Shown here: piece after piece, positions 3,318 to 34,131 of the stretch
How the letters are laid out: each line of letters starts with the position of its first letter
Position numbering within the stretch: position 1 is the first letter of the stretch
NCBI GenBank assembly: GCA_016742055.1
Contig: JACVCK010000005.1
Coordinates: forward strand, 1-36,682
Direction: 5' to 3'
Source: Phycisphaerales bacterium
Lineage (GTDB): Bacteria; Planctomycetota; Phycisphaerae; Phycisphaerales; UBA1924
Length of the DNA stretch: 36,682 nt
Position numbers and translations under genes: made by a program
The notes under the pieces: model-generated
What the model was told of the DNA's origin: nothing
Databases searched by the model: none
Seen by the model: only the letters and a program-made list of their open reading frames with translations

Positions 3318-4352
3318 TCAGCGCCGGCGCCGAACCATCAGCATCGCCAGCGCCACAAGCGATGCCCCCGCCCCCGGAGCCGGAATGACGGACGCAAGTC
3401 GGATGCCGATCAGCCGGTCGGGCGTGCCGCCGTCCCAACTGCTGATGAGATCAAAGTCAGTGAAAAGCGTGGTGATGTCGTTGCTGGTGGACTCCCACCG
3501 CCGCCCCTGCAGAAGCGCCGTCATCGTCTCCAGCCACTCATAGGCGCTTCCGGAGGCGTCGAACAGGCCCCAGGGCGTCTGCTGGTCGGGGTAGGAGAGG
3601 ATGGGGTAGTTGGCCGCGGAGCCCATGCCCGCGTTGGTCTGCGCGCCGGACGTTCCGGGCGCGCCGGAGACCGGGCGCGTGTCGCTGGAGTCGGGATAGC
3701 GCCAGTAGCCCTCCTGGCCCTCGCCGTGGCGGTCGGGGTCGAAGTGGACGGCCTTGACCCATTCGTCCTGCGTGGGAAGGAAGTAGCGCGCGCCCTCGGA
3801 GCGTTCGCGCTGGTCGGTGAGCGCGAGGTTGCCCTGGGTCCCGCCGCCGAACGTTGAGGTGTCGTAGACGCCGGACTCGAAGGCCCACGCCTGGTTGACC
3901 TTGCCGTTGTGCAGCCAGTTGACGTAGCGGGCGGCGAAGCGCCAGCCCACGTTGGCGGCGTGGTCGGCGGTCGATGCAGGCAGCGAGTAACCGCCGCCGC
4001 CTGACAGGCCTACGCCCGTGCCCGTGAACTGCGACGATCCTGAGAACTGCGCCGAGACATACGGCGCATAGGCGAGCACGAACTCGTACCACTGCCGGTT
4101 CGTGACCTCGGTCCTGGCGATGCGGTAGCGGTAGTCCACGCCGCCGTGACGCACGACGCCCCCGCCCTGATGGAGCCCCACCCAGTCGGCGTTGCGCGCA
4201 TGGCCGACCGTCGCCCATTCGTAGCCATAGTCCTGGATGGTCGAATCCCGGAAGGACCGCCAGCCGTCCTGGAACTGCGAGCCGGCTAGCGCGCCGGAAC
4301 TGAGCAGCGCCGCGGCGGAGACGGCGGCGAGGGGACGAATCACGTTGGTCAT
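3318..4352 (-). CDS. Secreted SUMF1/formylglycine-generating-enzyme-like domain protein with PEP-CTERM-like C-terminal anchor
   Basis: Signal peptide MTNVIRPLAAVSAAALLSSGALAG; RIARTEVTNRQWYEFV, WRFAARYVNWLHNGK, YFLPTQDEWVKAVHFDPDR, GLFDASGSAYEWLE; C-terminus IPAPGAGASLVALAMLMVRRRR. Confidence 0.85.
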   Translation of the reverse strand: MTNVIRPLAAVSAAALLSSGALAGSQFQDGWRSFRDSTIQDYGYEWATVGHARNADWVGLHQGGGVVRHGGVDYRYRIARTEVTNRQWYEFVLAYAPYVSAQFSGSSQFTGTGVGLSGGGGYSLPASTADHAANVGWRFAARYVNWLHNGKVNQAWAFESGVYDTSTFGGGTQGNLALTDQRERSEGARYFLPTQDEWVKAVHFDPDRHGEGQEGYWRYPDSSDTRPVSGAPGTSGAQTNAGMGSAANYPILSYPDQQTPWGLFDASGSAYEWLETMTALLQGRRWESTSNDITTLFTDFDLISSWDGGTPDRLIGIRLASVIPAPGAGASLVALAMLMVRRRR

Positions 4353-4564
4353 GGCGCGGGTTCCCGGACGTTGGGGTTTGGAGGCCTGTGCGATCTCCAT
4401 TGTGTCGCGCCGGGGCCGGGATGCAAGGGCCAGCCGCCGTATTGGCGGCGGATTCGGCGCTGTTTCGACCCTCTCCCGCACGGTCGAGGTTCACTGGGGA
4501 GGGGTTTGGACGCGCCACCGGCGTCGGGCCGCCGCGGCGGCCCGATCCCCCACGCGCGAACGGC

Positions 4565-4933
4565 TCAGTACCGATCCCAGTTCCGGCCCCGATGGCGGTG
4601 CGAGGTGGCGCAGCCGCACGAACTGCTGCACGTGTGGCGCGGGCGCTCGTAGTAGTAGTGGCGCGTCTCGTACGTGTGCGTCTGCGTCCGCGCGTACGAG
4701 GCGTTGCGCTGGTTCTGATCGCCGAGGACGCCGCCGAAGAGCGCGCCGGACACCGCGCCGATCGCCGCGCCCGCGCCCGCCTCGCCGAACATCGAGCCGA
4801 TGATCGCCCCGCCGCCGGCGCCCAGGCCGGCGCCGAACAGGGCGCCCTCGCCCGCGTTGTTGCAGCCGCCCAGGGCCGCGGCCATTGCGGCGCAGCCCCC
4901 GGCGCACACGCTCCGCTTCATCCGACGACCCAT
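4565..4933 (-). CDS. Glycine-zipper lipoprotein/outer-membrane-like small protein
   Basis: MGRRMKRSVCAGGCAAMAAALGGCNN with a lipobox-like LGGC, then a Gly/Ala zipper (GALFGAGLGAGGGAIIGSMFGEAGAGAAIGAVSGALFGGVLGDQ) and a Tyr/His/Cys-rich tail. Confidence 0.75.
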   Translation of the reverse strand: MGRRMKRSVCAGGCAAMAAALGGCNNAGEGALFGAGLGAGGGAIIGSMFGEAGAGAAIGAVSGALFGGVLGDQNQRNASYARTQTHTYETRHYYYERPRHTCSSSCGCATSHRHRGRNWDRY

Positions 4934-5069
4934 GACTCGGAACTCCTTTCGGCGCATCGGACCCTCCGTTCCGGCGCAGGGTCCGCCCGGACCCGTGGCG
5001 CCGAGGGGTTCGACGGCCGGCGCTTCGCCCGGTTCCGATCTTCGCGCGGGCGCGTCTACCATCTCCGCC

Positions 5070-5318
5070 ATGGACCGACGCCACCCATCCGGCCGCCCGG
5101 ACGAGACCAGCGCCGAGGCCGCGTGCCGGCTGATGGAGCGCTGGCTGACCTGGGCGCTGCATCAGCCGGAGGACGCATTCCCGCGGATCTCGCTCCGCCC
5201 GGTTTCCGAGGGGGGCTTCGAGGGGCTGCTGGCCCGGCCGGACGGGCGCCGACGGGCCGCGGGCTGGTGGGCGGGCGCGATGGAGCGGGTGCAGGCGTTC
5301 CCGCCCCACTGGGGCTGA
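5070..5318 (+). CDS. Small hypothetical protein (82 aa)
   Basis: ATG at 5070, MDRRHPSGRPDETSAEAACRLMERWLTWALHQPEDAFPRISL...; plausible but short. Confidence 0.55.
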   Translation: MDRRHPSGRPDETSAEAACRLMERWLTWALHQPEDAFPRISLRPVSEGGFEGLLARPDGRRRAAGWWAGAMERVQAFPPHWG

Positions 5319-5460
5319 ACGGGTCCCGAAACCCCGGCGCGGCCCGGGCGTGGCTCTTCCGGAGGGGATACAACAACGGCCCAGCCCCCGGCGACGCAGG
5401 GGATGGGCCGATCTGGCCGATGCACTCGTTCCCGCGTCCGCGAACCGTGGAGCCAGCCGA

Positions 5461-6312
5461 ATGACCGACACCCCCGCCCAACCCGTGCCGGCCCCCGCCC
5501 TCAGCGGCCCGCAGACCACCCGTCTCAACCGCACCTGGGTCATCAAGACCTGCATCTACCTCGTGGTGCTCCTGGGGCTTGGCATCTGGGGGCTGGTGGA
5601 CGGGCTGATCGTCTACCCCGAGCGCGGGCGCAACGCGGCGTCGTTCCTCGAGAAGGAGTACCTCGTTCAGGCCGAGAAGGCCGGCGAACTGTTCCGCGCC
5701 TCGATCGCGGACCCGCGCGCCGAGTTCGAGCGCCTGCGGGCGGTCGAGGACGACCTCCGCATGCGCGGCGCCCAGGCCAAGGCCGAGCAGCGCTCCGCCG
5801 ACCAGGTCGAGATGGAGTTGGCACGCCTCGAATGGCTGACCGCGCTCTCGCGCATCGGCGAACTGGACCCGGCCAACACCGCGCTGCCCGACCCCTCCGC
5901 GCGCCTCACGACCCTCCAGAACGAGTGGACGACCCGCAAGCCGCCCAAGCCGCTCTCCGCGTTCGACATCCCCTCGCAGTGGCTCATCGCCGTCGCCGGC
6001 CTGGGCCTGGGCGGGTGGATCGTCTTCCTGTTCGCGGCGGTGGCGCGGAAGAAGTACCGCTACGACCCCGCCGAGATGCGCCTGACGCTGCCCTGCGGGC
6101 GCACGCTCGTGCCCGCGGACATCGCCGAACTGGACAAGCGCCAGTGGCACAAGTTCTTCGTCACCGTCCGGGCCAAGGACGGCGGGTCCTACAAACTCGA
6201 CCTGCTCCGCTACGCCCCGCTCGAGCAGTGGATCCTCGAGATGGAAAAGCACACCGACGGCTACGAGCCGCCGGTCGAAACCCCCGCGGAAGAGCCCGCC
6301 GCCGCCACCTGA
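5461..6312 (+). CDS. Hypothetical membrane protein (two predicted TM segments)
   Basis: ATG at 5461; hydrophobic TCIYLVVLLGLGIWGLVDGLIV and WLIAVAGLGLGGWIVFLFAAV. Confidence 0.8.
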   Translation: MTDTPAQPVPAPALSGPQTTRLNRTWVIKTCIYLVVLLGLGIWGLVDGLIVYPERGRNAASFLEKEYLVQAEKAGELFRASIADPRAEFERLRAVEDDLRMRGAQAKAEQRSADQVEMELARLEWLTALSRIGELDPANTALPDPSARLTTLQNEWTTRKPPKPLSAFDIPSQWLIAVAGLGLGGWIVFLFAAVARKKYRYDPAEMRLTLPCGRTLVPADIAELDKRQWHKFFVTVRAKDGGSYKLDLLRYAPLEQWILEMEKHTDGYEPPVETPAEEPAAAT

Positions 6313-6357
6313 CGCGCCGGCGCGACAGCCCGCGCGCCGCGTTCCCAATCAGCGACG

Positions 6358-6870
6358 ATGGACACCTTCGCCGGCATCCTGGTCGCGCTGTTCGGGCTCT
6401 TCGGCGTCGCGCTCACCCTCCTGGGCTTCTCCGGCGTCTGGCTCACCATCCTCGTGGCCCTGCTCATGGACTGGTGGCGGCCCGACCCGCAGTACGGGCT
6501 CTGGACGATCATCGCGGCCGTCGGGCTGGGCGTGCTGGGCGAGGTCGTCGAGTTCGCGGCCGGGGCGGTGGGCGCGGGCAGCGCGGGCGGGTCCAAAAGG
6601 GCTGCGGCCGGCGCGATGGCGGGCGGCCTTCTGGGCGCGATCCTCGGCACGCCGCTGATCCCCATCCCGATCGTCGGCACCATCGTCGGCGCCGTGGTGG
6701 GCGCGGGCCTTGGCGCGGCGCTGCTGGAGCGCACGAAGGAGACGCGCACGTGGGGCGATTCCCTGCGCGTGGGCCAGGGCGCCGCGATCGGTCGTCTGAT
6801 CGCCACGGTCGTGAAGACAACTCTCGCCGCGATCGTCGCGGTGCAACTGGCCGTCGCGTTCTGGCTGTGA
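6358..6870 (+). CDS. DUF456-family membrane protein
   Basis: LVALFGLFGVALTLLGFSGVWLTILVAL, GLGVLGEVVEFAAGAVGAGSAGGSKRAAAGAMAGGLLGAILGTPLIPIPIVGTIVGAVVGAGLGAALLE is typical of DUF456. Confidence 0.85.
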   Translation: MDTFAGILVALFGLFGVALTLLGFSGVWLTILVALLMDWWRPDPQYGLWTIIAAVGLGVLGEVVEFAAGAVGAGSAGGSKRAAAGAMAGGLLGAILGTPLIPIPIVGTIVGAVVGAGLGAALLERTKETRTWGDSLRVGQGAAIGRLIATVVKTTLAAIVAVQLAVAFWL

Positions 6871-27065: not shown

Positions 27066-27878
27066 TCAGACGGCGCCGGCGATCAGGGTCGCCGCGGCGA
27101 GGTTGGAGCCGGCCACTTCGGGCAGGATCGCCAGCGCCGCGCCGGCCTGGATGGCGACGTCGATGATGGTGAGGTCGCGGCCCGGCCGGGCGTCGAAGCG
27201 GTGGAGGGCCTTCTGCACGACTCCGTCCTGCACGACGACGAGGCGGTAGCCGCCTTCGATCGGGGGCAGGTTGGCGTACATGAGGTAGGCCTTGCCGTTG
27301 GCCTCATCGACGAAGATGGCGGCGGTGGGGTCGGACCCGGCGACGGCGCCGGGGCCGCGGCTGAAGGTGCGCCGCTGGACCTTGTCGCTGGTGAGCATGT
27401 CGACGGCGCGGGCGCCGAAGGCGTCGTTGATGGCGGCGATGGTGGTGCCGGAGTTGAGGCTTGTGGAGATATCGTCGTAGTTCTGCTTCACGCGGAGGGT
27501 GGAATAGCCCAGGATGACGGTGGCGACGGCGAGCCCGATGGACGCGGCGCGCCAGAGCGGGGAGACGTTGCGCTGCAGTTGAACGGCGAAGGGCCCGATC
27601 TTGCGCTTGACGTGCTCGCCGGCCTCGCCGGCGCGGACGGCGACGATCGCCTCGCGCACGGCGTCCATGACGCGCAGTTTGAACCCGGGCGGCGCTTCGA
27701 CCGTCGGCAGGTACGCGTCGGACGACGCGATGCGGAGTTGCTCGCGCCGGATCTGCGCCTGGATCGCGGGGGGCGCGGCCCGGAGGGCCTGCTCAAAGTC
27801 CCGCCTTTCGTCCTCGTCCAGAAGGCCGAGAACGTCCAGGGACGCCATTTCAAAGAGGTCTCGTGTCGTGAGGTTCAT
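27066..27878 (-). CDS. Anti-sigma factor, RskA-like
   Basis: MNLTTRDLFEMASLDVLGLLDEDERRDFEQALRAAPPAIQ; one TM (AASIGLAVATVILGY); overlaps the sigma stop (ATGA). Confidence 0.85.
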   Translation of the reverse strand: MNLTTRDLFEMASLDVLGLLDEDERRDFEQALRAAPPAIQAQIRREQLRIASSDAYLPTVEAPPGFKLRVMDAVREAIVAVRAGEAGEHVKRKIGPFAVQLQRNVSPLWRAASIGLAVATVILGYSTLRVKQNYDDISTSLNSGTTIAAINDAFGARAVDMLTSDKVQRRTFSRGPGAVAGSDPTAAIFVDEANGKAYLMYANLPPIEGGYRLVVVQDGVVQKALHRFDARPGRDLTIIDVAIQAGAALAILPEVAGSNLAAATLIAGAV

Positions 27879-28453
27879 GCCGCCAGCTCCTCGCCTGGGC
27901 TGCGCTCCCTCAGCCGGACCAGCGCCCGGCTCAGGGCTGACTTAATTGTTCCGATGGGTTTGTTCAGGTCTTTACCGATCTGACGCAGCGTCTGGCCTCC
28001 GAGGTAGGACCGGACCACGACGATGCGCTGGAGTTCGGGAAGTTCTTCGATCCGTTTCATGAGAGAGGCGAAACGCTCGTCCGTCTCGATTCTTGTACCG
28101 GCCTCCACCACATCCGCTTCGGCGGAAATGGAGTCGGTCATCACCGACGTCTTCACACGGGCCTGGGCCCGCCGGAGCCGATCGACCAGGATCCGCCGAG
28201 AGAGCAGCATGACCCATGTGACCAGCGCGGCTCTTTTCGGGTCGTACCGCCCCGCGGTTCGCCATAGACGAACAAAGATTTCCTGAACCGCGTCCTCGGC
28301 GTCCGCCCGGGTGGGCATCGCCTGGTGAGCCAGGCGGAAAACGAGCGGCCCGAAGCGGTCGTACAACTCCGAGATCGCCGCCTGATCGTCGACGCTGACG
28401 CGCTGCATCAGTTCGAGGTCCGCGTCGTTCTGGGAAGGATCGCCCGGCTTCAC
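27875..28453 (-). CDS. ECF RNA polymerase sigma factor
   Basis: AVQEIFVRLWRTAGRYDPKRAALVTWVMLLSRRILVDRLRR and LPELQRIVVVRSYLGGQTLRQIGKDLNKPIGTIKSALSRALVRLRE. GTG at 28453 (VKPGDPSQNDADLELMQRV) has AAAGG upstream; start not certain. Confidence 0.87.
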   Translation of the reverse strand: MKPGDPSQNDADLELMQRVSVDDQAAISELYDRFGPLVFRLAHQAMPTRADAEDAVQEIFVRLWRTAGRYDPKRAALVTWVMLLSRRILVDRLRRAQARVKTSVMTDSISAEADVVEAGTRIETDERFASLMKRIEELPELQRIVVVRSYLGGQTLRQIGKDLNKPIGTIKSALSRALVRLRERSPGEELAA

Positions 28454-28574
28454 GGTGAAGACCTTTCTGCCTGGGACGTCAGAACCCCCGACGCCCGAAC
28501 AGTATACGGTGGTTGCGGCGTAAGTGATGCATGGAACCGGCAAACCCCACCGCTCGATTTCGATGACGAACATC

Positions 28575-28603
28575 ATCCTAACAAGTTTTCGGCCCCCTGT
28601 CAA
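28575..28603 (-). promoter_or_regulatory. Candidate sigma70-type promoter for the ECF sigma/anti-sigma operon
   Basis: Minus strand TTGACA (28598-28603) - 17 bp - TAGGAT (28575-28580). Confidence 0.65.
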
Positions 28604-28680
28604 GGTGGTTGTTGTTGTGCCGGGCCAAGATTTACGATAGACTGCACATTGGATCCATCGGTCACCAGGAGGTGAGCGAC

Positions 28681-29508
28681 GTGAAACGACAGAGGGGACT
28701 TTCGACAGGGCGTGCGTCCGCCGCGTCGGCTATGAGGAGCTGTGGCTGCCGCCGCGCTTTCTCGCTCCTCGACCTGCTCGTCTCGATCGCCGTCATCGCC
28801 ACCCTGATGGCGATCATGGCCCCGGTCCTCTCAAAGGTCACCGAAGCGACGCACCGGGTGATGTGCCAGTCGAACGTCCGGCAGTTGGGCCTGTGCCTCG
28901 CGCTCTACGCCGAGGACCACAACGACGAACTGCCCGGCAGCGTGTTCTCGAACACCATGCTTCGTGGAGAGTTCCAGCCGCAGGAAATGATGACGCTCCG
29001 CGTGGGCGGCGAGCAGGGCGATTGGGACGGCCTGGGTTGGCTCTTCCAGGCGGAGTACGTCAAGACTCCCGAGGTCTTCTACTGCCCCAGCCACAAGGGG
29101 ATGCACGGGTTCAACCAGTACGAGGACGACTGGTTCACCTGGGGCCGCGAAGTGCTGGGCAACTACCACTATCGCGCCTTCACGTCCGACCGCACCTACC
29201 TGCAGACGCTCGATCCCAAGACCGCGCTGATTTCCGACGGTCTGCGGACGCACCTGGACTTCAACCACCGCGTCGGGACGAACGTCCTCCGCGCGGACAT
29301 GTCCGTGGAATGGGTCCCTGACCGCGACGGAACGCTCTCGGGCCTCCTGCCCCCCGCCGTGGGCGCGCTGGAAGCCGACGAGGATGTTTACGCCGCATGG
29401 TGGCTGCTCGAACGCGGCACGCTCGACGAGTTCCCCGGCCTGCCGTGGGACACCTCCACGCCCGGCGGCACGCCCGGCTTCGAGGCCTTCGTCGGCTTCC
29501 CCGGCTGA
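28681..29508 (+). CDS. Pseudopilin-like (type II secretion, prepilin-type N-terminus) protein
   Basis: GTG at 28681 with AGGAGGTGAGCGAC upstream; CRRAFSLLDLLVSIAVIATLMAIMAPVLSKVTEATHRVMCQSNVRQLGLCLALYAEDHNDELPG. Confidence 0.85.
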   Translation: MKRQRGLSTGRASAASAMRSCGCRRAFSLLDLLVSIAVIATLMAIMAPVLSKVTEATHRVMCQSNVRQLGLCLALYAEDHNDELPGSVFSNTMLRGEFQPQEMMTLRVGGEQGDWDGLGWLFQAEYVKTPEVFYCPSHKGMHGFNQYEDDWFTWGREVLGNYHYRAFTSDRTYLQTLDPKTALISDGLRTHLDFNHRVGTNVLRADMSVEWVPDRDGTLSGLLPPAVGALEADEDVYAAWWLLERGTLDEFPGLPWDTSTPGGTPGFEAFVGFPG

Positions 29509-29638: not shown

Positions 29639-30631
29639 TTGAACCAGTTCTCGTCAGGCCGTGCGGCGTCGATCGGCGCCGCGATCCTCTCCGCTTCCAT
29701 CATGGGAGACGCCATGGCGCAACTCGTTCCCGATCGCCTCTATTACGGCGCTGGTCGTTCGATCCCCATGACGATCGAGGCGCCCTCGGGCGCCGGCGCG
29801 GTGGAGATCGCGCTGTTCGCGCCGGGCGCCACGGAGCCCAGCGAGCGCGCCAGCGCCGAGGCGGGGCGCGTGGACCTCGCCGGGCTGTTCCCGGTGCTGT
29901 GGACGACGCAGAAGCCGGCGCTGCTGTACGCGCAACTCATCGTGGACGGCGAGAAGGTCGGCTCCCCGGTCGTCCTGCAGCCGCTCCTGCCCCCCGCGCA
30001 GGCCATGACCTCCCAGACGCGGCGCATCGAGTGGGTCGAGCGGCGCGACGGGCCCTACTCCGGCCTCCGCGCCTACGTCGACCAGCACGTGCTGCTCGAA
30101 ACCTCGCTCGGCGAGATCGAGATCCGCATGCGCCCGGACCAGGCGCCGAACACTGTCTACAACTTCATGGACCTCGTGGACGGCGGCTTCTACACCGACG
30201 TCATCTTCCACCGCATCGTCCCCTCGCTGCCCAACGGCCACTCGTTCGTCATCCAGGTGGGCGATCCCGGCGGCCGCGGCGACGGCGGCCCGGGCTACCT
30301 CATCGACCTCGAGCGCAGCACGCTCCCGCACGACTTCGGCGTGGTGTCGATGGCCCGCACCGCAGACCCCAACACCAACGGATCGCAGATCTTCATCTGC
30401 CTCAGCCGGCAAGGCACCGCTCCGTTGGATGGCGACTACTGCGCCTTCGGCCAGACGGTCCGCGGCGCCGAGGCCATCCAGGCCATCTCGGCCGTGCCCC
30501 TGGCCGATCCCGGCTCCGGCCGGCCGGTGGAGCCGCCCGTGATCAAGTCCGCGCGGCTGATCCCGGCGCCCCCCTTCGGCGAGGGCCCCGGCCCTGTCCA
30601 GGCGAACGCCGCCGCCCCGGCGCCGCGCTGA
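29639..30631 (+). CDS. Secreted cyclophilin-type peptidyl-prolyl cis-trans isomerase with N-terminal extension
   Basis: TTG start with AGGAG upstream; LLETSLGEIEIRMRPDQAPNTVYNFMDLVDGGFYTDVIFHRIVP, SFVIQVGDPGGRGDGGPGY, GVVSMARTADPNTNGSQIFICLS. Confidence 0.88.
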   Translation: MNQFSSGRAASIGAAILSASIMGDAMAQLVPDRLYYGAGRSIPMTIEAPSGAGAVEIALFAPGATEPSERASAEAGRVDLAGLFPVLWTTQKPALLYAQLIVDGEKVGSPVVLQPLLPPAQAMTSQTRRIEWVERRDGPYSGLRAYVDQHVLLETSLGEIEIRMRPDQAPNTVYNFMDLVDGGFYTDVIFHRIVPSLPNGHSFVIQVGDPGGRGDGGPGYLIDLERSTLPHDFGVVSMARTADPNTNGSQIFICLSRQGTAPLDGDYCAFGQTVRGAEAIQAISAVPLADPGSGRPVEPPVIKSARLIPAPPFGEGPGPVQANAAAPAPR

Positions 30632-30674
30632 TCCCACCCACCGCAACCTTTTGCCCTCCGCGGGCGAAGAACTC

Positions 30675-30703
30675 TTGAACCCCAACCGGGGGTGTGCTCT
30701 ACT
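30675..30703 (+). promoter_or_regulatory. Candidate promoter with inverted repeat inside the spacer
   Basis: TTGAAC (30675-30680) - 17 bp - TCTACT (30698-30703); ACCCC-AACCG-GGGGT inverted repeat at 30679-30693. Confidence 0.4.
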
Positions 30704-30731
30704 GAATGAGGACGACCGCACAGGCCCGACC

Positions 30732-31130
30732 GTGACCCGCTTGCCCCGCACAACTCGTCGCCGCTCCGCCCGTGCCCGGGCGCTCCCCGGGTGGCTGGTC
30801 TTGGTCGCGCTGGTTCTGCAGTGGGCGGCTCCGGCGGTCCACGGCCTTGAGTTGGTCCACGCCCACCACGCGTGCGACGGTTCGGGCGCGGAGGTCCATC
30901 ACGAGCCCTCGCCGGTTGACCCCGTCGTTCCGACGAACGATCACGACGAGGGAACCTGCTCGGTCTGCCTCATCCTCGCCCATGCACGCGACGGCGCCCC
31001 GCCGACGCTCGTGCTCTGTGTGATCGACGCCCGCCCCATCGCGAGGGCCGACCGATCGACGCCGCTCGCGCCCAGGGGTGAACCCCGCCGGACCGACGCG
31101 AGCCCGCGCGCCCCGCCGGCCCTCGCCTGA
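30732..31130 (+). CDS. Small His/Cys-rich membrane-associated protein (DUF2946-like)
   Basis: GTG at 30732; hydrophobic LPGWLVLVALVLQWAAPAVHGLEL followed by VHAHHACDGSGAEVHHEPSP...NDHDEGTCSVCLILAHARDG. Confidence 0.6.
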   Translation: MTRLPRTTRRRSARARALPGWLVLVALVLQWAAPAVHGLELVHAHHACDGSGAEVHHEPSPVDPVVPTNDHDEGTCSVCLILAHARDGAPPTLVLCVIDARPIARADRSTPLAPRGEPRRTDASPRAPPALA

Positions 31131-31285: not shown

Positions 31286-32047
31286 ATGCGACGAAGAGCT
31301 TTCACGCTCCTCGAGTTGCTCGTGGTCGTGGCGATCATCGCGCTGCTCGTGGGCATCCTGCTGCCCACGCTCGGCGGGGCGCGCGAGGCCTCGCGCACCG
31401 CTTTCTGCCTGAACAACGTGCGCTCGATGCAGTTGGCGCACTGGATGTATCTTGAGGCCCACGACGGCGCGTTCGTGGATGTGGGGCTCGCGCACGGCGG
31501 GGTGGAGACGAACGAGGCCGGCTCCTGGATCGTCACGCTCTCGGAGTTCTACGAGACGGACCTGGCGCGGCAGTGCCCGTCCGACCGCAGCCCGCACTGG
31601 CCCATCGACCAGGGCGGGGCCGGGGAGCACGTGCCCGAGAGCGAGAGCGCGCTGCGCCGAACCAGTTACGGCGTGAACAACTACCTCACGAGTTTCGCTC
31701 CGGCCGTCGCCAACCCCAACCGGCCCTCCACCATCCTGCGTTTCCGCAACATCAACCAGATCGTGAGCCCGTCGGACACGGTCCAGTTTCTCGAGATGAC
31801 CGAGAGCGGGCCGTTCGCCGGGTCTGACCACCCGCACGTGGAGAACTGGCACATCCCCGGCTTCCCCGACGCCGCGCCCGCGCTCGCCACGCAGCACCTG
31901 GAGACCAACCAGCACGGCGGCGAGGCGCGGACGTGGGCGGCGAAGGCCAACTACGGCTTCCTCGACGGGCACGCCGCGACCTTGTCGTTCGAGCAGGTCT
32001 ACACCGACCTCGACCGCAATCGATTCGATCCGAACCTCCAGCGCTGA
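31286..32047 (+). CDS. Pseudopilin-like protein with H-X9-DG-type C-terminal segment
   Basis: GGAAGGA RBS; MRRRAFTLLELLVVVAIIALLVGILLPTLGGAREASRTAFCLNNVRSMQLA; KANYGFLDGHAATLSFEQVY. Confidence 0.9.
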   Translation: MRRRAFTLLELLVVVAIIALLVGILLPTLGGAREASRTAFCLNNVRSMQLAHWMYLEAHDGAFVDVGLAHGGVETNEAGSWIVTLSEFYETDLARQCPSDRSPHWPIDQGGAGEHVPESESALRRTSYGVNNYLTSFAPAVANPNRPSTILRFRNINQIVSPSDTVQFLEMTESGPFAGSDHPHVENWHIPGFPDAAPALATQHLETNQHGGEARTWAAKANYGFLDGHAATLSFEQVYTDLDRNRFDPNLQR

Positions 32048-32075: not shown

Positions 32076-32855
32076 ATGCGACTCCGCACCATCGCCATCG
32101 CCGTCCCGCTCCTGCTCGGCGCCGCCGCCCGCGCTCAACTCCACTCGGGCGACGTCGTGCTGACCGTCTCGGAAGGGCGCGTCGTGACCGGGACAGGCAA
32201 TCCATCCAGCGGCACGTACGCCGAGGCGCGCATCTTCGGCGCCACGCTCGGCAACCCCTTCCCGAACTACACCAACAACCCCGGCTTCGACTGCCTCGCC
32301 GGCACGTTCCCCGTGGGCAGCGCCGTGGGCTTCAACATCCTCGACCGCCTGCTGGTGTGGAACGGCTCGTCCTTCGAGCCCACCGGAGGGGAAGTCATGC
32401 AGGTTTCGTTCCTCAGCGCCTCCGCGACCTCGGGCGAGGGGCCCGTGCAGGGGTTCACGGTCGGCGTCTCCGGCACGGGGTCGTGGCATAACCACCTGGG
32501 CTACCTGCTCCAGCAGGGCGCCTCCCCCACGTTCGACAACGGCGTCTACATGCTCCAACTCGAACTCTTCGGCACCGCCCCAAACCACGCGCCGAGCAAG
32601 CCGCTGTTCAAACTCTTCCGGCGCAACGCGCCCCAGGCCGACCTCGACGCGGCCGCGGCCTACGTGGCCGCCAACCTCCTCAACACCTCCATCCCCGGCG
32701 ACGCGAACGGCGACGGCGTCGTCAACTTCGCCGACCTCAACATCGTCATCTCCAACTTCAACACCTCCGGCCCCGGCATCCCCGGCGACCTCGACGGCGA
32801 CGGCGATGTGGACTTCGCCGACCTCAACGAGGTCCTGAGCAACTTCAACACCTGA
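32076..32855 (+). CDS. Secreted protein with dockerin-like C-terminus; paralog of 32977-33660 (all3515-like ectodomain, tentative)
   Basis: Signal MRLRTIAIAVPLLLGAAARAQ; FPNYTNNPGFDCLAGTFPVGSAVGFNILDRLLVWNG; C-terminal GDANGDGVVNFADLNIVISNFNT...GDLDGDGDVDFADLNEVLSNFNT. Confidence 0.88.
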   Translation: MRLRTIAIAVPLLLGAAARAQLHSGDVVLTVSEGRVVTGTGNPSSGTYAEARIFGATLGNPFPNYTNNPGFDCLAGTFPVGSAVGFNILDRLLVWNGSSFEPTGGEVMQVSFLSASATSGEGPVQGFTVGVSGTGSWHNHLGYLLQQGASPTFDNGVYMLQLELFGTAPNHAPSKPLFKLFRRNAPQADLDAAAAYVAANLLNTSIPGDANGDGVVNFADLNIVISNFNTSGPGIPGDLDGDGDVDFADLNEVLSNFNT

Positions 32856-32976
32856 ACCGCTTGTTCGCGCCCCCGTGACGCGGCGCCCGTTGTTCCCGCC
32901 CCCTTGTCACGCGCTCCGGACCGAGAGCCCCGTTGCGCAACCCCAAGAGTCCGACCGACTCAGAAGGAGAGAATCC

Positions 32977-33660
32977 ATGAAGATCGCAGCCCTGATCGCG
33001 CTCGGCGCCGCCGGCGCGCTGGCGCCCTCTGCCCTGGCAGGCGAAGACCATGCGCACGAAGGCGACGTCGTCCTCACCGTCCGGCACGGACGCATCATCA
33101 CCGGCTCGGGCGAGGGCGCCCGGTTCCGGCGCGCCCAGGTTTTCGGCTCCGAACTCGGCGCCGAGGGCTTCCCCAACACCACCGACGAGCCCGGCTTCGA
33201 CAACCTGCCGGGCACGTTCGCGCCGGGCTCGAACATCGGCTTCAACATCCTCGGCGAACTGCTGATGTGGGACGGCGCGGGACTGTCCTCCACGGCGAAC
33301 GGCGAGGTGATGGAGATCGGCCTCGGCCCCGTCAGCGTCGTCAGCGCCACGGGCTTTGTGCCGGGGTTCATGCTGCCCGTCGAAGATTCCGGCGAGTGGC
33401 ACGAGCACTACGAGTTCACGCTGCTGGGCGCTGCAGCCGGGAGCCCGTCCGACGGCGTGTACGTCCTCAAGATGAGTCTTTTCAGCGACGACCCATCCGT
33501 CGGACGCTCCATTCCCTTCTGGCTGGTCTTCAACCAGAACATGGATGAGTCGATCCATGACGGCGTGATCGATTGGGTGGGCGCCAACGTGGTCCCCGCG
33601 CCGGCGGGCGCCGGCGCGCTGGCCCTGGGAGCGCTCGCGGCGCTCCGCCGTCGGCGCTGA
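32977..33660 (+). CDS. Secreted protein with PEP-CTERM-like C-terminus; paralog of 32076-32855 (all3515-like ectodomain, tentative)
   Basis: AGAAGGAGAG RBS; MKIAALIALGAAGALAPSALAGEDHAHEGDVVLTVRHGRIITG; FPNTTDEPGFDNLPGTFAPGSNIGFNILGELLMWDG; C-terminus VPAPAGAGALALGALAALRRRR. Confidence 0.88.
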   Translation: MKIAALIALGAAGALAPSALAGEDHAHEGDVVLTVRHGRIITGSGEGARFRRAQVFGSELGAEGFPNTTDEPGFDNLPGTFAPGSNIGFNILGELLMWDGAGLSSTANGEVMEIGLGPVSVVSATGFVPGFMLPVEDSGEWHEHYEFTLLGAAAGSPSDGVYVLKMSLFSDDPSVGRSIPFWLVFNQNMDESIHDGVIDWVGANVVPAPAGAGALALGALAALRRRR

Positions 33661-33685: not shown

Positions 33686-33723
33686 GCCCCGCGTCCGCCC
33701 CTGACGGCGACGCGGGGCTTTTT
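33686..33723 (+). terminator. Rho-independent terminator
   Basis: GCCCCGCGTC (33686-33695) / GACGCGGGGC (33709-33718) followed by TTTTT. Confidence 0.88.
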
Positions 33724-33840
33724 CGTGCCACGCCCGGCGCCCCTGAGCCGCGATTCACCCGCGCGCCACGCACGGCTCACGCGCCCGCGCCATCATGCCC
33801 CATGCGCCGACGGAACCCGGCGCCCAACAAGGAGAACACC

Positions 33841-34131
33841 ATGCCCCCCAAAGCCTGGAGCGCCAAAGACGAGCGCCAGTACAAGCATGTGCGAAAGAGC
33901 GAAAAGGAGCAGGGCCGCTCCGACGACCGCGCCGAGGAGATCGCTGCAGCCACTGTGAACAAGCAGCGCGCCAAGGAAGGACGCACCAAGACGGCCTCGA
34001 AGAAGGCCGCAAAGAAATCCACGAAGAAAGCGTCCAAGGCCTCATCGAGGAAGCGGACCACAAAGAAGGCCGGGGCGTCGCGGCCGGCGAAGAAGAAGGC
34101 CGCCGGACGGCGCAAGGCCTCGTCGCGCTGA
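33841..34131 (+). CDS. Small basic protein with Lys/Ala/Ser-rich histone H1-like tail
   Basis: MPPKAWSAKDERQYKHVRKSEKEQGRSDDRAEEIAAATVNKQRAKEGRTK then KTASKKAAKKSTKKASKASSRKRTTKKAGASRPAKKKAAGRRKASSR; ORF preceded by aaGGAGaacacc. Confidence 0.82.
   Translation: MPPKAWSAKDERQYKHVRKSEKEQGRSDDRAEEIAAATVNKQRAKEGRTKTASKKAAKKSTKKASKASSRKRTTKKAGASRPAKKKAAGRRKASSR

Follow-up and report, generated by a model that had tools for sequence, protein, structure and literature searches.

A candidate copper-controlled exoprotein unit in Phycisphaerales: a CruR-type leader, a prepilin-like gene and two sister ectodomains on different anchors

In the 'choice-of-anchor' families of NCBIfam, one ectodomain family is found with alternative C-terminal sorting modules. 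In the copper protein CopC, His1 is combined with an Asp-x-His motif. CopC and the LPMOs are histidine-brace copper proteins, which are exported and bear one His at the start of the mature protein, or close to it, and another inside the chain (PMC10952591).

Two leader peptides are known to control the genes behind them in response to copper, with opposite signs. In Bordetella pertussis, experiments on the DUF2946 leader CruR (bp2923), encoded ahead of bfrG and bp2921, established that copper sensing needs a CXXC motif and that downstream expression needs a RAPP motif; 45 residues separate the two motifs, RAPP lies three residues from the end, a 162-nt gap follows, and the operon is turned off by copper (PMC9426467). 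In Rhodobacter capsulatus (CutF-CutO-CutG), copper makes the DUF2946 protein CutF raise the expression of CutO, encoded behind it; CutF-like leaders often stand ahead of efflux or oxidase genes, and copper is not considered the signal of every DUF2946-like leader, some being assigned to other metals (PMC9973294). In addition, arrest peptides of the RAPP/RGPP kind serve in many phyla as monitors of the Sec pathway (PMC10987492).

The locus described here lies in a stretch of 36,682 nucleotides of a Phycisphaerales bacterium (contig JACVCK010000005.1), called the window below; the draft genome from which it comes measures 2.59 Mb and is about 70% complete. It contains the following pair of genes.

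32076-32855, plus strand: gene A, 259 aa, with a signal peptide, an ectodomain and a dockerin-like tail
32136-32684, plus strand: ectodomain of A, predicted mature start QLHSGD
32487-32489 and 32493-32495, plus strand: the WHNH histidines of ectodomain A
32694-32852, plus strand: dockerin-like double repeat of A (PF00404), with about 95 copies in the genome
32977-33660, plus strand: gene B, 227 aa, with a signal peptide, an ectodomain and a variant PEP-CTERM tail
33040-33591, plus strand: ectodomain of B, predicted mature start GEDHAHEGD
33400-33402 and 33406-33408, plus strand: the WHEH histidines of ectodomain B
33592-33657, plus strand: tail of B, VPAPAGAGALALGALAALRRRR, with about 50 such tails and an exosortase in the genome

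A first-pass annotation had claimed two open reading frames sharing one ectodomain and spanning 32076-33660. Both were confirmed at these coordinates, gene B starting at ATG 32977, preceded by AGAAGGAGAG, and following A on the same plus strand after 121 nt. The shared ectodomain is borne out as well: a BLASTP comparison of A and B gave a significant alignment (40% identity over about 184-188 aa, E=2e-43), which spans all the common motifs that had been listed. Just 3' of gene B, at 33686-33724, a terminator-like element can be seen by eye (CCCCGCGTC...GACGCGGGG followed by TTTTT); the terminator scan did not list it, its loop being longer than the limit of the scan. Further on, between gene B and a tRNA-Cys, a small ORF (33802-34131) ends in a long Lys/Ala-rich, histone-H1-like tail.

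We found no match of the ectodomain proteins to NCBIfam models of the choice-of-anchor type. The likeness to such families lies in one ectodomain family being carried on alternative C-terminal sorting modules; the difference is that here a single genome keeps both anchors next to each other, in a tandem that is conserved. No ectodomain homologs were found in plasmid records, the sole match in a PDB profile search was an LPMO at a non-significant E=0.55, and AlphaFold2 on B, with A as the only partner sequence, reached a mean pLDDT of 39.

The first-pass annotation had read the two tails as dockerin-like repeats and a PEP-CTERM-like tail, which holds in kind. Tail A consists of two GDxx(N/D)GDGxx(N/D)FADLN repeats and scores 22.7 bits against Pfam Dockerin_1 (PF00404; gathering cut-off 22.9) and 21.1 bits against NCBIfam dockerin_GC (cut-off 29); it is dockerin-like, with scores just below the curated cut-offs. 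A search of the source genome with A retrieved the partner B and about 95 further places that share only the dockerin-like tail, and no match to cohesin (PF00963) was found in this genome, about 70% complete as sequenced. Tail B consists of VPAP, a hydrophobic stretch and RRRR; it matches neither of the PEP-CTERM models (TIGR02595 and PF07589, for Pro-Glu-Pro), having VPAP instead. Relatives of other families do match TIGR02595. The tails thus fail to score as models in a formal sense, one falling just short of its cut-off and the other being a variant that no model covers. A profile of the VPAP tail found about 50 copies in the source genome (about 30 at E<=0.001), most of the plus-strand matches that were checked sit exactly at a stop codon, and the genome encodes one exosortase (Exosortase_EpsH, 140.8 bits). 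For these reasons tail B is regarded as a variant PEP-CTERM tail that lacks the Glu. Given their copy numbers, both tails are ordinary genome-wide modules, and the oddity is that one ectodomain is kept on both.

Another VPAP-type tail in the window, one of those retrieved by the tail profile, ends a protein that looks formylglycine-generating-enzyme-like (3318-4481, minus strand; IPAPGAGASLVALAMLMVRRRR). Proteins in which a dockerin-like pair is followed by a VPAP or VPEP tail were also seen, at G000:C87:5705-5950 and G000:C77:2727-2963 and at loci L137, L147 and L149. The two kinds of module are therefore not mutually exclusive, and one tail may have replaced the other by way of such a combined form.

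When 394 genomes of the phylum were searched with a single sequence, ectodomain homologs were detected in 16, all of the same order; with a profile, 157 of the 251 genomes of that order gave matches, and other genomes rarely did. In the survey of relatives that the first-pass annotation had proposed, we read 64 loci, and the usual form is a pair of neighbouring genes, each with its own tail. A dockerin-type tail together with a PEP-type tail occurs in 36 of the 43 loci with at least two copies (window included), a proportion that is not unbiased, as many of these loci were picked for having two matches. The dockerin gene comes first in 32 of the 36 and the PEP gene in three (L103, L113 and L119); the remaining one (L117) has two dockerin genes and one PEP gene. 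The other multi-copy loci carry two dockerins (4/43) or, in remoter families, a PEP tail and a dockerin+VPEP tail (3/43). Single-gene loci with canonical VPEP or IPEP tails also exist, and a search from the His-rich relative L142 gave matches confined to its own genus.

Two further architectures were encountered. Single-copy ectodomains at L039, L053, L134, L135 and L136 (genus g17, family f5) have neither tail but a C-terminal module of a third kind, ~100 residues long and marked by PGCPG; the L039 protein had no match in Pfam or NCBIfam. At L125 (G480:C28, 3985-6057), a protein of 691 aa has three tandem ectodomains and a single dockerin.

The question is then how the two tails came to be distributed on the two ectodomains. 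It had been suggested from the window that gene duplication was followed by swapping of the targeting module. The ectodomain tree (99 rows) groups by tail type and not by genome, with 7 label changes versus 36 on shuffling, and a smaller tree does so too. In a quick tree, window B fell outside the main PEP clade with weak support; constraining all PEP-type ectodomains together, window B included, raised the likelihood by 9.97 over that of the unconstrained quick tree (p-AU 0.71). Because of the grouping by tail type and of this better likelihood, one old duplication suffices, and the trees support an ancient A/B duplication, the two tail types being largely fixed on two ectodomain clades. Independent tail swaps in most genomes were rejected on the same trees. 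The duplication part of the suggestion thus stands, and the swapping part applies to later events: most tails are fixed by clade rather than swapped genome by genome, and true swaps were found in four genomes in which a dockerin sits on a PEP-clade ectodomain (L122, L126, L127 and L128), and at L117. This last locus (G425:C1:2023500-2034000) has three genes, at 4041-5099, 5103-5954 and 5958-6740, of which the middle one has an ectodomain like that of gene 3 (mostly 0.9 or more) followed by a dockerin like that of gene 1 (0.95-1.0). To judge from these matches, it is a natural tail chimera and a recent recombinant.

Histidine motifs are conserved on both sides of the duplication. HxH is present in 51/52 dockerin-type ectodomains; among the PEP-type ones, 23/43 have DxH and 20/43 HxH, so that either form is found in 43/43, and the second His is present in all PEP-type rows. 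A His occurs at predicted mature position 1-3 in 56/98 ectodomain proteins, the mature N-termini being those given by a simple rule and not by SignalP. Such motifs, which the prepilin-like protein described below has as well, together with the frequent His at predicted mature positions 1-3, would suit a Cu(II) site. The resemblance to the histidine-brace proteins is that many members have a predicted N-terminal His and an internal His, and that the Asp-x-His of CopC recalls the DxH forms. The difference is that no sequence relation is detectable, the LPMO match above being the only one, and the comparison is one of sequence motifs.

A link to zinc regulation had been suspected in the first-pass annotation, which likened the ectodomain to the Zur-repressed, PEP-CTERM-bearing all3515-type family. 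ZepA/All3515, the zinc exoprotein of Anabaena, is likewise secreted, of similar size, and has a PEP-CTERM-type tail (as copy B does) and a His near the mature N-terminus (PMC10957091). If A and B were zinc scavengers of this type under Zur control, the same general plan would be expected, and it is there: secretion, histidines, a PEP-CTERM-type tail on one copy, and a His- and acid-rich mature N-terminus in B; ZepA homologs are, moreover, reported from the PVC superphylum. However, compared by motif and description, the locus differs from ZepA. The motif H-X2-9-H-F/Y-H is absent from both A and B, the VPEP tail is replaced by a dockerin-like tail in A and VPAP in B, Zur/Fur-type boxes upstream of the preceding gene were no better than shuffles in 61 loci, neither zinc genes nor a zinc-gene cluster appeared in the scanned neighbourhoods, and no NCBIfam model for all3515 matched as a bridge. 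The pair also comes with a prepilin-like gene and, for B, a dockerin-tailed sister, and a copper-type leader, of the DUF2946/CruR kind, stands at the head of the locus. The Zur link is therefore not supported, and membership of A and B in the ZepA/Zur family was rejected on motif, tail, Zur boxes and neighbourhood; as an account of the unit, zinc scavenging is quite improbable.

Two conserved members of the unit, both upstream of gene A, had been missed in the first-pass annotation.

30651-31130, plus strand: leader ORF of the DUF2946/CruR type, likely start GTG 30732, matching PF11162
31131-31285, plus strand: leader-C1 intergenic region, 155 nt
31286-32047, plus strand: C1, a prepilin-like protein (N_methyl, DUF1559-related), with PF07963 and PF07596 above cut-off

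An all-against-all comparison of neighbourhoods yielded one conserved neighbour of the ectodomain gene, the gene directly upstream, C1, in which the motifs GLxHGG and DHxHxExW (DHPHVExW in the window) are conserved. The C1 profile matches directly upstream of the ectodomain gene in 62/65 loci, the remotest included; the other three are L041, where the copy is a second one and unlinked, L129, where the contig ends, and the remote locus L148. Genes further out vary among loci (fucosidase, pyrimidine biosynthesis, tRNA synthetases and others). The organisation leader, C1, dockerin-tailed ectodomain, PEP-CTERM-tailed ectodomain is well supported as a conserved four-gene unit; its gene order, conservation, motifs, spacing, tails and swaps are all read from the DNA. 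A literature search found no published operon joining these parts, and no known copper gene adjoins the unit in the neighbourhoods scanned.

The window also holds a second prepilin/DUF1559-like gene (28609-29508). It diverges from the genes of a sigma factor and of a probable anti-sigma factor (27066-28603), and behind it comes the gene of a cyclophilin-type isomerase (PPIase, 29639-30631), which shares the strand of the leader and stops 20 nt short of the leader ORF in its longest form. Both this prepilin-like gene and the isomerase are found in the nearest relative, G322.

As an independent check, the C1 profile was run on a sample of 296 genomes of the phylum: its strongest matches were in genomes carrying the ectodomain, and weaker ones pointed to loci with hardly any or no score for the ectodomain profile. 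Four such remote loci (L207, L209, L210 and L212) have the leader, with a CxxC-RxPP spacing of 44-45, and downstream they encode small secreted proteins with canonical PEP-CTERM or dockerin tails, one of each in L209 and L210; several of these proteins bear HxH- or DxH-like motifs. Because the remote loci keep the arrangement, the combination of leader, C1 and differently anchored secreted proteins is older than the recognisable ectodomain. In L210, two downstream genes are each preceded by a CruR-type leader of their own (1677-2120 and 3881-4321 in reverse-strand coordinates).

These loci bear on another view of A and B, in which they are an ordinary paralogous pair of surface proteins and the tail difference has no functional meaning. 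Both tails are indeed common in the source genome, and some genomes make do with two dockerins or a single gene. Such a view is nevertheless distinctly unlikely, as one tail of each kind is kept in 36/43 multi-copy loci over deep divergence, the copies differ in motif too (HxH in 51/52 against DxH in 23/43), and even the very remote L209 and L210 have one PEP-type and one dockerin product.

The leader of the window comprises a hydrophobic segment, a His-rich loop, a CSVC motif and, three residues before the stop, RAPP, with a CSVC-RAPP spacing of 46. It scores 25.4 bits against PF11162 (26.4 in the genome search; gathering cut-off 23.7) and is the only ORF of the source genome above that cut-off; leaders of relatives score from 25.3 bits down to no match, and have His-rich loops as well. 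Scanning upstream of the unit for an ORF with CxxC and then RxPP near the stop, we found the pattern in 38/60 loci, as compared with 4/823 background windows. Nearly all spacings are 43-48, 27 of them 45 or 46, and three of the four background matches have other spacings. The strict pattern was not found in the other 22/60 loci, which include one genus with the pair intact (L043, L045, L047 and L048). Two CruR-type leaders occur upstream of C1 in one locus (L132/L150).

The similarity to the CruR operon includes CXXC, RAPP three residues from the end, nearly the same spacing (45 versus 46 here), a long gap (162 versus 155 nt here) and downstream products that are exported. The operons differ in what these products are: in Bordetella, a TonB-dependent transporter together with a membrane protein of the PepSY type; here, a prepilin-like protein with two anchored ectodomain proteins; the copper response is known for Bordetella, whereas the window leader is known from its sequence. 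CutF, too, is a DUF2946 leader that is exported, combines a Cys motif with a Pro motif at the C-terminus and controls the genes that follow it (PMC9973294). However, the Cys motif of CutF is CxxxC, a stem-loop covers the ribosome site of the next gene, and copper induces the system, while the leader here has CxxC, and no stem of this kind stands out over the C1 ribosome site in the intergenic region, with a folding z of -0.23 relative to shuffles.

Three readings of this leader are considered: export monitoring, copper detoxification and copper acquisition.

The leader might monitor protein export, like SecM, ApdA and ApdP, and the unit would then be a surface-structure operon unrelated to metals. 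The wide distribution of RAPP/RGPP peptides that watch over Sec fits this, as does the fact that all downstream products are exported, one being prepilin-like. However, the near-constant CxxC-RxPP distance, the His-rich loops of the leaders and the conserved His motifs of both downstream families speak against it, and neither sec nor yidC is among the downstream genes read. We therefore regard export monitoring as very improbable.

Alternatively, the leader could act like CutF and not CruR, and the unit would be a copper-induced system for detoxification or storage. CutF itself boosts CutO with copper, and the efflux and oxidase genes behind many of its relatives would agree with such a role (PMC9973294). 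Against it, the RAPP type of motif, the spacing and the long gap resemble CruR, whose operon copper switches off; the unit has no oxidase or efflux gene; and no stem like that of cutF-cutO stands out between leader and C1. This possibility seems unlikely to us.

Copper is taken as the signal because the leader is of the CruR type, and since it resembles CruR rather than CutF, acquisition under copper shortage would be favoured over detoxification. On balance, and at slightly better than even chances, we consider that the unit is a copper-controlled exoprotein system in which proteins with His sites are displayed by two anchors, most likely for scavenging. Weighing against copper are the loci that lack the strict leader (22/60), the DUF2946-like leaders for other metals, the Sec-monitoring RAPP peptides and the lack of an adjoining copper gene. 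What we infer is that the metal is copper and that it is bound, as well as the sign of the regulation, the two locations and the relay. The leader would be a nascent-chain copper sensor of the CruR type: when copper is scarce, the ribosome would pause at RAPP and the downstream genes would be expressed; once copper is bound to CxxC, their expression would stop, a sign borrowed from CruR and opposite to that of CutF. The downstream proteins would make up an extracytoplasmic copper-handling apparatus, most likely for scavenging. In it, the sister ectodomains would bind metal through HxH or DxH, probably with the His near the mature N-terminus, and since one would take the exosortase route and its sister bears a dockerin-like module, the same domain could be shown at two places. 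C1, with its own DHxHxE motif, may be part of the inner membrane or of a pseudopilus, from where it would present or relay the metal. A more specific proposal, offered tentatively and at clearly less than even chances, is that this is an undescribed copper-acquisition or copper-relay apparatus, in which a CruR-type leader switches on C1 and two differently anchored copper-binding sisters, and copper is handed between two extracytoplasmic positions, no TonB receptor being part of the unit.

If this reading is true, it would provide a signal and a likely role for a DUF1559-related, prepilin-like subfamily, for the ectodomain family and for the leaders of this lineage, and it would extend copper-sensing nascent peptides to a lineage in which only few had been noted before. 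The maintenance of one domain on two surface-targeting modules amounts to a natural experiment, and the L117 chimera shows that neighbouring genes exchange targeting modules through recombination. The leader, finally, makes the function of the unit directly testable.
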